IMG/VR virus record: IMGVR_UViG_3300024262_000238
Location: 1-24,063 of that record
Reading direction: 5' to 3' (one strand)
Length of the DNA stretch: 24,063 nt
Source: a virus
The position numbers were made by a program, and so were the translations under genes. Under the pieces are notes generated by a model, which saw nothing but the letters and a program-made list of their open reading frames with translations, was not told where the DNA came from and made no database searches. Below, piece by piece: positions 772 through 6,444 of the stretch. Position 1 is the stretch's first letter; every line of letters starts with the position of its first letter.

Positions 772-845
772 GCTTCGGTGACGGAATAGGTATACGTGCT
801 ACACTCAAAATGTAGATTTTGTGGGTTCGACTCCCACTCGGAGTA
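772..845 (+). tRNA. tRNA-Leu (CAA anticodon) with a short variable arm
   Basis: The acceptor 772-778 pairs fully with 838-844 using three G-U pairs; A845 is the discriminator. The D stem ACG/CGT is 781-783 with 795-797. The anticodon stem CTACA/TGTAG is 799-803 with 811-815, with loop CTCAAAA and anticodon CAA at 806-808. The T stem GTGGG/CCCAC is 821-825 with 833-837, with loop TTCGACT. Anticodon CAA assigns Leu (codon UUG). The D arm looks like that of bacterial tRNA-Leu, but the variable region is only 5 bases (816-820) instead of the long extra arm usual for class II tRNAs. CCA is not encoded. Confidence 0.88.
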
Positions 846-863
846 CTAATTAGCTTACTTGAG

Positions 864-878: not shown

Positions 879-1330
879 TGAAAATATTACTTAGTACGTT
901 AATGAACGAAGCATTTCTTGGATATTATAATGCAGACACAAAAGAAGATGTAGAAGTTTTTATAAACCCAAGAAGCATAAAAAGAATGAAACCTAATATC
1001 AGAGCTATCAGTGATGAGAAAGGTGATTTGTTTGTAATTGATGATGCTTTCGGTGTTATACATATGCATCTTTTAAACTGGTTGGGAAAGAACACTCCAT
1101 ACTTACCTAATAAAAGATATACGTATGATGATTATTCAGATATGTTATCAAAGTATATATTTTGGGAAAGAGATGGTAAATCAGATACATTTGCTTTAGG
1201 TGAATCTTATGCAGATGATGATGCTGAGTTTATTCAAAAAGACTGGGTTGATAAAGTTAAAAGAAAAAATCCACAATATAAATTTACAACAAAAATATGG
1301 GGCGAAGAGGTGTTTAAAGATGAAACTTAA
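878..1330 (+). CDS. Unknown protein, 150 aa, with possible N-terminal head-targeting leader
   Basis: No family is recognised. The protein is soluble, mixed alpha/beta, and rich in aromatic and acidic residues (DDYSDMLSKYIFWERDGKSDTF near residues 105-125). The N terminus MKILLSTLMNEAFLGYY has Glu11-Ala12, which sits where the two following genes have Glu-Gly in an ITEG motif, so the leader may be shared; this is weaker here because the P3 residue is Met. The repeated promoter-like motif ends at the first base of the ATG. An in-frame ATG at 902 (residue 9) is an alternative start, and using it would remove most of that leader. The stop overlaps the start of the next gene by 11 bases, indicating translational coupling. 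Confidence 0.75.
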   Translation: MKILLSTLMNEAFLGYYNADTKEDVEVFINPRSIKRMKPNIRAISDEKGDLFVIDDAFGVIHMHLLNWLGKNTPYLPNKRYTYDDYSDMLSKYIFWERDGKSDTFALGESYADDDAEFIQKDWVDKVKRKNPQYKFTTKIWGEEVFKDET

Positions 1331-2081
1331 TCTAGAAAATATTATAACAGAAGGTATATATGACCCAGGCATACTCAAAGCTGTATTTTTAGCCGGTGGA
1401 CCAGCTTCTGGCAAATCTTGGGTTGTTAACAAGATATTTGGTGTAGGTGGAAAAACAGCAACTGATATATCATCACACTATGGATTAAAACTTATAAATA
1501 GTGATATTCAATTTGAAAGAATATTGAAAAGCAGTGATATTGACATAGCTGATCTAGCTAAATTACCACCAGAAGAATTTAAAAAAATAAGTATGGGTGG
1601 TGATAGTAAAAGAGGGAAAGCAAAGGAGATTGTTGGTAAACAGAAAAAGTTTTTTGAATCTGGTAGACTTGGTTTAATTATAGATGGAACTGGAAAAGAT
1701 CAGAAAAAGATTGAAAGACAAAAACGATCATTAGAAGCACTTGGGTATGATACCGCAATGATATTTGTTAACACTGATTTAAAAACTGCTTTAGAAAGAA
1801 ATAGCAAAAGAAAAAGAGTTTTACCAGATGATTTAGTTGAAGAAATGTGGAAAAGCGTACAAAGAAATTTGGGAAGTTTCCAAAACATGTTTGACTTATT
1901 CATTATAATAGACAATTCAGATATAATACAAGAAGACAGAGATGAAGTTTTTTCTAAAAATGCTAAAAATCAAATAAAAAAAATCGAACAGTTCTTAAAC
2001 AAACCTGTAGAAAATGCAATTGGAAAAGTTTGGATGAATTATAGATTGAAACTAAAAAACAAAACTAGGAGTGAACGCTAG
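1320..2081 (+). CDS. P-loop kinase/zeta-toxin-like NTPase, first of a tandem pair
   Basis: This 253-aa protein has a Walker A motif GGPASGKS at residues 26-33, a conserved NSDIQFE segment near 60-66, LIIDGTG near 119-125 and a basic RNSKRKR patch near 160. Together they fit the P-loop kinase fold shared by polynucleotide kinases and zeta-type kinases. The substrate cannot be read from sequence. The frame is open further upstream, but the ATG at 1320 is chosen because it gives an N terminus colinear with the paralogue downstream and overlaps the preceding stop by only 11 bases. The leader MKLNLENIITE|G resembles T4 capsid-targeting leaders (MKTYQEFIAE|A), which is an inference. The next gene begins at the base after its stop. 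Confidence 0.82.
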   Translation: MKLNLENIITEGIYDPGILKAVFLAGGPASGKSWVVNKIFGVGGKTATDISSHYGLKLINSDIQFERILKSSDIDIADLAKLPPEEFKKISMGGDSKRGKAKEIVGKQKKFFESGRLGLIIDGTGKDQKKIERQKRSLEALGYDTAMIFVNTDLKTALERNSKRKRVLPDDLVEEMWKSVQRNLGSFQNMFDLFIIIDNSDIIQEDRDEVFSKNAKNQIKKIEQFLNKPVENAIGKVWMNYRLKLKNKTRSER

Positions 2082-2831
2082 ATGACTAACATTAAATTAT
2101 TCAAATTAATAACTGAAGGTGTTTATGATCAGGGTATATTGAAAGCTATATTTTTAGCAGGTGGTCCCGGCTCTGGTAAGTCATGGGTTGGTAAACAAAT
2201 ATTTGGAATAGATAGTGAAGAAACAATACGATCTTTTTCTAATTTTGGCTTAAAACAAGTTGCAAACGACATACAGTTTGAGAAGATGTTAAAACAGCAA
2301 GGCTATGATCCAAAAGATTTACAGAATTTGCCACCCGAAGAATTTAAAAAACTTACTGTTGGTGATAACAGCTTAAGGGCAAAAGCAAAAGCAATAATTG
2401 ATAAACAAAAAGATTTTTTTAAACAAGGGAGATTAGGTTTAATTATAGATGGAACTGGACAAAATTATGAGAAAACTAGAAACCAAAAAAAAGTATTAGA
2501 AAGTCTAGGTTATGATGTTGGTATGGTGTTTGTTAATACAGATTTAGAAACTGCACAAAAGAGAAATCAGAGAAGAAAAAGACAGTTACCTATAGATTTA
2601 ATCGAAGAGCTTTGGCACACTGTACAAAAAAACTTAGGAAAGTACCAAGAAATGTTCGGAGACAATTTCGTAATAGTTGACAATTCTGCAGAAGAAGGCG
2701 AAGAGTTTTTCAAACAGTATAACAAACCACAGATTAAAAAAGTAGAAAAATTTTTAAAAGCACCAGTTGAAAATGAAGCTGGAAAAGTTTGGATAGAATT
2801 TCAAATGCAAACTAGAAATAGATTAAAATAA
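2082..2831 (+). CDS. P-loop kinase/zeta-toxin-like NTPase, second of a tandem pair
   Basis: This 249-aa protein aligns end to end with the upstream one, with shared blocks ITEG(I/V)YD, GILKA(V/I)FLAGGP, LPPEEFKK, GRLGLIIDGTG, ALGYD/SLGYD and VFVNTDL. The Walker A motif is GGPGSGKS at residues 27-34. Catalytic-looking features are retained in both copies, so neither looks decayed. The start codon directly follows the upstream TAG, so the two are almost certainly co-translated. Like its partner it carries a short leader ending ITE|G (Glu12-Gly13), a candidate prohead-protease site. The stop is 8 bases before the tmRNA 5' end. Tandem duplication is the simplest origin; the function of having two copies is unknown. 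Confidence 0.85.
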   Translation: MTNIKLFKLITEGVYDQGILKAIFLAGGPGSGKSWVGKQIFGIDSEETIRSFSNFGLKQVANDIQFEKMLKQQGYDPKDLQNLPPEEFKKLTVGDNSLRAKAKAIIDKQKDFFKQGRLGLIIDGTGQNYEKTRNQKKVLESLGYDVGMVFVNTDLETAQKRNQRRKRQLPIDLIEELWHTVQKNLGKYQEMFGDNFVIVDNSAEEGEEFFKQYNKPQIKKVEKFLKAPVENEAGKVWIEFQMQTRNRLK

Positions 2832-2839
2832 TTATAAAG

Positions 2840-3221
2840 GGGGTAGTATTGGTGATTTGACATTCAATACACAGTTCTTTTACATGATGCAGGTAGTACT
2901 AGATGGAAGTACTTAAATATCCTATCAAATACATTAAATGGCGATAACGCACAACTAGCGATCGCAGCGTAGAAACTCGCTGCCCGCGTAGCGGCTGAAA
3001 AAGTATTCTTATTAAGCCACAAAGATGTATAACTGGAATACTTAATACCAGCAATGGCAGTATTATATATCAAATAGTAGTTGAAGCCCAACAAGAAAAT
3101 GGGGATAGCTAGAGATTGTCATTATAACGTGAGCTATATAATTAATGGAAAATGACTAAACTTGTGAATGAATGTAGATTAACATATTGTTTGGACTCGG
3201 GTTCGACTCCCGACTACTCCA
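2840..3221 (+). ncRNA. ssrA: Phage-encoded tmRNA (ssrA)
   Basis: The 5' GGGGTAG (2840-2846) pairs with CTACTCC (3214-3220), including the G3-U70 wobble that alanyl-tRNA synthetase recognises; A3221 is the discriminator and CCA is not encoded. The T arm is TCGGG/CCCGA (3197-3201 with 3209-3213) around TTCGACT. The 5' part continues TATTGGTGATTTGACA, similar to the bacterial D-arm-like region. The tag frame starts at a GGC at 2940 and reads GDNAQLAIAA then TAG (2970-2972). Its stop lies in the loop of a GCAGCG/CGCTGC hairpin (2964-2969 with 2978-2983), the expected helix 5. Further stems fit pseudoknots: AGTACT/AGTACT (2895 with 2908), AAGTATTC/GAATACTT (3001 with 3036), CCGC/GCGG (2984 with 2991). 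CAATA/TATTG may form helix 2. Its role would be ribosome rescue and tagging of stalled products. Confidence 0.93.
2940..2972 (+). other. tmRNA tag reading frame GDNAQLAIAA
   Basis: The ten codons from GGC to GCG followed by TAG encode GDNAQLAIAA. The C-terminal Ala-Ala is the hallmark of degradation tags. The exact resume codon is inferred from the Gly start typical of related tags and from the helix 5 position, and could be off by a codon. Confidence 0.8.
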
Positions 3222-3246
3222 CACTTTAAATTAAATACATAGAAAG

Positions 3247-5158: not shown

Positions 5159-5965
5159 ATGACTTATAATAAAAATCAAGTAGTAAGAGTTTCTATAGTA
5201 TCGCTGTTTTTGATATTGTATTTCTTTGTCAGTATAATTTCAACAATTCACGTTATAGACTTTTTTCACATGTCTAATACTCGAGCAATGTCTATAATGT
5301 TAGCAATTGCTTTTGAACTAGGTGCTGCAGCATCATTGGCTTCGATAGTGATATTAGACAAAATTAACAAATTTGTTGTCTGGTCACTTTTTATAGTCTT
5401 AACAGCAATGCAAATGATGGGAAACATGTTTAACTCATATATTCATTTAGAAGAATATGTAGCTTGGGTAGAGTTATTTGGCTTAAATACTTTAGATGTA
5501 TTATCTCAGAAAAGAATTATAGCTGCTGTTTCTGGTGCAATATTACCGGTTGTGGCTTTGGGTTTTATTAAATCATTGATAGACTATATTAAACCAACCA
5601 AAGAAAACGATATAAATGACTACGAACCCTTTATTCAACAAGAAGAGTTAGATCCAGAGTTTAATCAAATAGTTAATGACAACTTTAATGATTTATTAGC
5701 TGATGACGGTAGTGGAGAAGACAATGAAGTTAAAATAACTAAAGATGATATGGAGAAGATGAGATCAGAAATACCAGAAGGTAATATTACTAGATCATTT
5801 ATTGAGCGAGAATATGAGAATCAACAAAATGAAAAAAAAGCAGTAAAAGATGACACTAGTGTCGAAAAAAATGATTACCTTTATAATAACGATACACTAG
5901 CTGACTCTTATAGATGGGAAAATCCTGAATTTTATACAGATGTTAGAGATAAAAATAAAAAATAA
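5159..5965 (+). CDS. Four-span membrane protein with acidic cytoplasmic tail, 268 aa
   Basis: Four hydrophobic segments are visible at about residues 9-31, 42-66, 71-93 and 119-142. They are followed by a 125-residue polar, acidic tail without domain-like repeats. The layout places both ends on the same side, most likely cytoplasmic. A GGAAGGGAAA ribosome site lies just upstream, inside the previous gene's end. The final A of its TAA is the first base of the next ATG. I do not recognise the family; a role in remodelling the host membrane or in sensing is conceivable only by analogy. Confidence 0.75.
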   Translation: MTYNKNQVVRVSIVSLFLILYFFVSIISTIHVIDFFHMSNTRAMSIMLAIAFELGAAASLASIVILDKINKFVVWSLFIVLTAMQMMGNMFNSYIHLEEYVAWVELFGLNTLDVLSQKRIIAAVSGAILPVVALGFIKSLIDYIKPTKENDINDYEPFIQQEELDPEFNQIVNDNFNDLLADDGSGEDNEVKITKDDMEKMRSEIPEGNITRSFIEREYENQQNEKKAVKDDTSVEKNDYLYNNDTLADSYRWENPEFYTDVRDKNKK

Positions 5966-6444
5966 TGAAAAAAAATGTTACGAGTAAAATTCACAATTCA
6001 CAATTCAAAGAAATGGAATGTAAACTGTGTGGTGGTATTGTAAAAAAAATTGATCATGATACTGTCGCTGTTACATGTTCTGTATGTGTACAAGAAATGG
6101 TTGGTCCACCTATCATTAAATCTAATGGTAATAACGAATTGAAACGCCCTCGAGGTTGGAGGCTTTATAATTTGTTTGTTGATTCCGTAGGTAATGTGTT
6201 TAGAAAAGGTGTTGAATTTCCTAAAGAAAAAGGGAAACTACCTGTTACTGACATTAAAAAGAAAAGTAAAGAAAAGCCTAAAAAAACCACTAAGCGAGAA
6301 AAGAATATAAAAATTGATGAGCTTTTGGAAGAGCTTAATAAAGAGCGCAGAATGACGATATCTGGTTCTGCATCAGACCAGAAAAAAGCTTCAAGAAATA
6401 TTAAAAAGTTACAAAAAGAACTCAAAAAAGTGAGAGGTTATTAA
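5965..6444 (+). CDS. Zinc-ribbon protein, 159 aa
   Basis: Two CxxC pairs (Cys19/Cys22 and Cys38/Cys41) form a short zinc ribbon near the N terminus. A conserved-looking segment follows, RPRGWRLYNLFVDSVGNVF at about residues 59-77, with GVEFPKEKGKLP after it. The second half is very basic and then helical (about residues 110-155, many Lys, Glu and Arg), likely a coiled coil. Such ribbons bind nucleic acid or protein partners; which applies here is not shown. The start overlaps the upstream stop by one base (TAATG), so the two genes are translationally coupled. Confidence 0.75.
   Translation: MKKNVTSKIHNSQFKEMECKLCGGIVKKIDHDTVAVTCSVCVQEMVGPPIIKSNGNNELKRPRGWRLYNLFVDSVGNVFRKGVEFPKEKGKLPVTDIKKKSKEKPKKTTKREKNIKIDELLEELNKERRMTISGSASDQKKASRNIKKLQKELKKVRGY

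Follow-up and report, generated by a model that had tools for sequence, protein, structure and literature searches.

Does the tmRNA (ssrA) gene on this phage sequence encode a working molecule for ribosome rescue, and does its tag, GDNAQLAIAA, give unfinished proteins another fate than the tags of the host? The window, i.e. the whole stretch of 24,063 nucleotides that was analysed, is an entire linear IMG/VR virus record of 24 kb and a metagenomic fragment. It contains baseplate wedge genes, and the tmRNA gene sits among phage genes on one strand; the contig is a fragment of a myovirus-like phage.

An intact tmRNA gene and its structure

Based on ARAGORN, a one-piece tmRNA was called in the window at 2840-3222 on the plus strand with the tag GDNAQLAIAA*, and the Rfam model RF00023 matched 2840-3224 over its full length (model positions 1-374 of 374) with 68.4 bits (E 6e-25), the curated cut-off being 47 bits. 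ARAGORN called no tmRNA after the window had been shuffled 200 times with its dinucleotide content preserved (4.8 Mb in all). The phage thus carries an intact, full-length tmRNA gene. This was proposed in an earlier note made from the letters alone, and both searches suggested there, ARAGORN and the Rfam tmRNA model, detected the gene, the latter with a covariance score above the threshold. From the coordinates given in that note (2840-3221) the start was retained, while the end had to be moved, since 3221 is the discriminator base and ARAGORN places the end at 3222. The RF00023 scores of four Bacteroidota tmRNAs (132-158 bits) were far above the 68 bits of the window tmRNA, and some drift or loss of function is possible because of this difference.

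Most structural elements that had been noticed beforehand were recovered (Table 1). The acceptor strands pair as GGGGUAG/CUACUCC with the G3-U alanine identity pair, the TTCGACT T arm was found with the stem TCGGG/CCCGA, and the UAG stop of the tag lies within the loop of helix 5 (H5). By helix enumeration, two crossing helices each were drawn for PK1, PK2 and PK4, whereas PK3, of the four pseudoknots of the tmRNA family, was not clearly drawable. CCA is not encoded in the gene.

Table 1. Positions of the tmRNA gene, its parts and the neighbouring genes in the window.
Feature	Position	Strand	Basis or remark
tRNA, CAT anticodon	127..201	+	ARAGORN, Rfam; upstream of tmRNA
tRNA-Leu(CAA)	772..846	+	ARAGORN, Rfam; upstream of tmRNA
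P-loop kinase 1, tandem paralogue, 55% identical to kinase 2	1320..2081	+	sequence comparison
P-loop kinase 2, ends 8 bases 5' of tmRNA	2082..2831	+	Pfam Zeta_toxin/AAA_33; fold search
One-piece tmRNA (ssrA) gene	2840..3222	+	ARAGORN; Rfam RF00023 68.4 bits; 0 in 200 shuffles
Acceptor 5' strand GGGGUAG, includes G3 of the G3-U70 alanine identity pair	2840..2846	+	pairs with 3214-3220
PK1, 2895-2900/2908-2913 (AGUACU/AGUACU) crossing 2902-2906/2922-2926 (GAUGG/CUAUC)	2895..2926	+	helix enumeration
Tag frame GGC GAT AAC GCA CAA CTA GCG ATC GCA GCG TAG (codons 2940-2969, TAG stop 2970-2972)	2940..2972	+	ARAGORN; resume context TAAATGGCGANAAY as in Bacteroidota tmRNAs
H5, 6 bp GCAGCG/CGCUGC, 2964-2969 with 2978-2983, UAG stop in loop	2964..2983	+	helix enumeration
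PK2, AAGUAUUCU/GGAAUACUU crossing UAUU/AAUA	3001..3047	+	helix enumeration
PK4, AUAGCU/AGCUAU crossing UUAUA/UAUAA	3105..3142	+	helix enumeration
T arm TCGGG-TTCGACT-CCCGA	3197..3213	+	Rfam match, hand-set stem pairs
Acceptor 3' strand CUACUCC (3214-3220) and discriminator A (3221)	3214..3221	+	sequence

The tag and the divergence from host tmRNAs

Nearly all of the 101 readable tags of Bacteroidota-type hosts were GEN.YALAA-like, i.e. GENNYALAA or near it, and the Bacteroidota sample that gave these tags contained no permuted host tmRNA. None of the 101 ended in AIAA and none was equal to GDNAQLAIAA. Likewise, the pattern GDNxx[hydrophobic]AIAA gave no match in 84,980 species, each represented by one genome, and an AIAA tag in tmRNA context was absent from 395 Bacteroidota genomes, all in agreement with the earlier view of a tag distinct from those of the hosts. 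The AIAA ending itself is not unique, as by hand translation a 34-aa tag ending in EYVAIAA was read in the viral record IMGVR_UViG_3300032291_002550 (G005; locus L153, 1501-1859), which ARAGORN missed, and ANDNSYASAAIAA, a further AIAA-type ending, was present in three viral contigs. The tags of Bacteroidota-type phages vary widely (GNNAEMRMAA, the 34-aa tag ending in YVAIAA, GESVYMAMAA) and have no new ending in common.

For ClpX of E. coli it was reported that the last two alanines weigh most, and that a change in the residue before them raises the KM modestly (PMC7652416). GDNAQLAIAA still ends in Ala-Ala, which is what ClpX mainly recognises, and a strong shift in the choice of protease is not expected because these alanines are kept and the role of the antepenultimate residue is modest. 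From this published work in E. coli, the effect of AIAA on protease choice is predicted to be modest.

The RNA outside the tag has also diverged from the host genes. When the whole tmRNA gene was compared by BLAST with the 395 Bacteroidota genomes, only the last 35-70 bases at the 3' end matched, indicating that the window tmRNA has long been separate from the host copies and is neither a fresh host copy nor contamination. In a tmRNA tree it was placed among mixed phage sequences, the support of the nearest node being 0.02. Acceptor pair 6 is A-U in the window tmRNA and C-G or U-A in 68 Bacteroidota tmRNAs, and the first T-stem pair is U-A compared to G-C or C-G in these 68; G3-U70 was identical in all of them. 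As the combinations of the window are absent from the 68 tmRNAs, both pairs are altered on both sides with the pairing kept. On limited evidence, namely hand-set acceptor and T-stem pairs of one phage sequence set against hosts, with no close relative having the same tmRNA found, this argues for selection acting on the tmRNA as an RNA. A covariation count on a MAFFT alignment of whole tmRNAs was unusable, since the 5' end was misaligned, and CTTGTGAA was dropped as a phage-only motif, since it is present also in viral tmRNAs of the alphaproteobacterial type.

Host, relatives and neighbouring genes

A pattern search with TAAATGGCGANAAY and a tag ending in Ala-Ala in the 84,980 species, one genome each, returned almost only Bacteroidota. 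The window tmRNA has this Bacteroidota-type pattern, with the resume context and a Gly-start tag, and judged from its sequence the phage probably has a host among the Bacteroidota. The nearest annotated relatives of the baseplate wedge genes were those of Microcystis phage Mel-JY01, Flavobacterium phage immuto and the huge phage LR756508. A full-length tmRNA was present in the huge phages LR756500 and LR756508 and was not found in Mel-JY01 or immuto. Among 70 IMG/VR records with the same baseplate gene, most of which are fragments, one had a full-length tmRNA over the cut-off and one other a permuted tmRNA. As most of the searched relatives, mostly fragments, were without tmRNA, the gene seems patchy and dispensable for the clade. 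The related phages that do carry a tmRNA, some of them adjoining tRNAs, keep the acceptor, T arm and a tag frame, so that the loss of acceptor and tag frame considered in the earlier note was not seen. Protein and tag-pattern searches of IMG/VR gave no close relatives of the window tmRNA or of its neighbour genes. No SmpB gene was found in the 24 kb fragment, and 8 records of related phages, among them LR756500, LR756508 and G005 with their tmRNAs, gave none either.

The tRNA-Leu(CAA) of the window is 75 nt long with a short variable loop. Bacterial tRNA-Leu has as a rule a long variable arm. The tRNA-Leu genes of LR756508 and S-CRM01 are likewise 75-76 nt long.

Several other forms of tmRNA were seen alongside. 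LR756508 has, besides a full-length tmRNA (L008, 1501-1944) with a hand-read tag of about 35 aa ending in KPAAV that was missed by ARAGORN, a tag-less RNA of 110-112 nt that comprises the tRNA-like part only (L010, 1501-1610; LR756508.1, about 414804-414913; Rfam tmRNA 58.2 bits). The latter has G3-U70, a T arm and a single long closed H2 hairpin, and resembles the TLD-only form of DS6A. Permuted two-piece tmRNAs with Bacteroidota-like tags were found at L154 (1385-1552, GESVYMAMAA, RF04321 63.4 bits) and, below the cut-off, on the minus strand of L322 (about 5560-6010, GENSEMKMAA, acceptor piece about 285 nt upstream); they may represent a separate origin of two-piece tmRNA. The permuted viral tmRNAs with G-start tags at L326-L342 are alphaproteobacterial in type and were left uncounted as Bacteroidota. 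In G005 (L153, L157) the tmRNA is followed by a GOLLD RNA and then tRNAs, and L351 (4998-7482) has in order an RNA-kinase-like gene, a tmRNA with a 24-aa tag, a GOLLD RNA and a tRNA array. The tmRNA of crAssphage cr125_1 is annotated and called by ARAGORN, and is under the Rfam cut-off. Directly 5' of it (L284, 1432-2959) matches to a Hatchet ribozyme and a RAGATH-9 RNA were detected, the RAGATH-9 match overlapping the annotated tmRNA start.

The distance of 8 bases between the tandem P-loop genes and the tmRNA, as described before, was found to be correct. The AlphaFold model of kinase 2 had a mean pLDDT of 84.6, and in a fold search with this model Z was highest, about 14, for O-phosphoseryl-tRNA kinase and for bacterial polynucleotide kinase; zeta toxin scored about 12.7 and T4 polynucleotide kinase about 12. 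Kinase 2 is predicted to be RNA-kinase-like by fold, although likeness in fold is no proof of function. In L351 a kinase about 48% identical to the window kinase precedes the tmRNA on one strand with a gap of 53 bases, and this gene order was absent in Melnitz, HTVC008M and Atu_ph07. A general association of kinase and tmRNA was rejected when synteny was tested from both sides: among 80 relatives of the kinase one had an adjoining tmRNA and one a tmRNA 3.6 kb off, and a match to the kinase family was present in five of 50 phage records, almost all of which have a tmRNA, and adjoined the tmRNA only in L351. It is quite unlikely that both genes form one translation-protecting module, in which the kinase would help to mend tRNAs or tmRNA after cleavage and the tmRNA would free ribosomes and tag their products in a phage-specific way.

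Function in infection and comparison with known systems

Taken together, the gene very probably encodes a functional tmRNA that would rescue ribosomes during infection by way of host factors. The gene, tag, acceptor identity, helices and kept pairs come from sequence and structure; what we infer is that it is expressed and charged, that it uses host SmpB and tags proteins, and which protease degrades the tagged product. Host tRNA enzymes would process the phage tmRNA, after which CCA would be added by the host, and the host alanyl-tRNA synthetase would charge it with alanine through G3-U70. Host SmpB and EF-Tu would then bind it and bring it into ribosomes stalled on broken messages; use of the host SmpB is most likely because this gene is missing from the fragment and from the related tmRNA-bearing phages searched. 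The tag, (A)GDNAQLAIAA, would be appended to the unfinished protein and the ribosome released at the UAG stop. The benefit for the phage is probably that ribosomes are freed and broken proteins cleared while phage and host messages decay, and the tmRNA would act as a supplement to its small tRNA set. In mycobacteriophage Wildcat, the tmRNA was by RNA-seq the most highly expressed lytic gene of that phage (PMC7474061).

Other explanations were weighed against this one. The tag could serve to alter the fate of unfinished proteins, directing them to another protease or to slower or no decay compared to host tags, as may be suspected from its difference to all 101 readable host tags and from the differing tags of Bacteroidota-type phages. 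This seems unlikely, as the Ala-Ala end is retained, the residue just before it has in E. coli a modest effect when changed (PMC7652416), and the phage tags share no single new ending. The phage RNA could also occupy SmpB or stalled ribosomes and thereby dampen host trans-translation rather than add to it; the related LR756508 has its 112-nt RNA with the tRNA-like part only, and a molecule similar to the TLD-only RNA of phage DS6A has been shown to be a strong inhibitor of tmRNA (PMC4131195). However, the window tmRNA has a tag frame with its stop, H5 and three clear pseudoknots, none of which an inhibitor needs, making this highly improbable.

It is highly improbable that the gene is a passive passenger or the relic of an attachment site, i.e. 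a host ssrA picked up by an integrating phage and now decaying. tmRNA genes often serve as sites of integration (PMC11915505) and the gene is patchy among the relatives, but it is complete, strongly diverged from the hosts and has kept its pairing through two-sided changes, and no integrase family was matched among the window proteins scanned. A metagenomic fragment may also be a chimeric contig or contain host DNA. With the tmRNA lying between phage genes, on one strand of a contig with baseplate genes, and matching host ssrA at the 3' end only, this is extremely improbable. A functional phage-encoded tmRNA that works through host factors thus remains the preferred explanation.

Phage tmRNAs were described in 402 of 18,146 phage genomes, about 2% (PMC9004378), and are listed at the tmRNA Website (PMC4131195); many annotated phage records have one, as do 43 of the 58 viral contigs that we retrieved by one T-arm pattern. 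The earlier note called them known but uncommon, and they are indeed known and carried by a minority, but these counts show that they are not rare. The window tmRNA adds an example to them, with a tag that is new compared to the searched bacterial genomes. More unusual are the RNA-kinase-like gene just 5' of the tmRNA, and in other phages the tmRNAs that have a long tag, a permuted order or no tag. Phage tmRNAs have been little described for the Bacteroidota, and a full one with a tag of its own is here added to a phage group linked to this phylum. These phages vary the tmRNA freely, with short tags, tags of 34-35 aa, permuted and tag-less forms, whereas the sampled hosts have nearly one tag, and the fate of phage compared to host tags becomes a testable question.

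Like the bacterial one-piece tmRNA of the Bacteroidota type, the window tmRNA has a G3-U70 acceptor, a T arm, a stop in H5, pseudoknots, a Gly-start tag after TAAATGG and two terminal alanines. It differs in being phage-borne, in its GDNAQLAIAA tag, which is not GENNYALAA-like, and in an interior that is unrecognisable by BLAST. Like the window phage, the mycobacteriophages Bxz1, Wildcat and Kumao, Streptomyces phages and Bacillus phage G carry a complete tmRNA in a large phage genome (PMC4131195), but their hosts are others than that of the window phage, and the Kumao tag has 31 aa compared to the short Bacteroidota-like tag found here. Melnitz (PMC9004378) is, like the window phage, a marine myophage with a tmRNA and the same P-loop kinase family, but its tmRNA is permuted, two-piece, of the alphaproteobacterial type and under a glutamine riboswitch, and the kinase is not adjoining. 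Closer by gene content are LR756508 and IMG/VR 3300032291_002550, which have a baseplate gene family in common with the window phage, and LR756500, which shares another window gene. LR756500 and 3300032291_002550 have their tmRNA near tRNAs, and all three have tags unlike that of the window: GNNAEMRMAA in LR756500, about 35 aa ending in PAAV in LR756508, and 34 aa ending in YVAIAA in 3300032291_002550.
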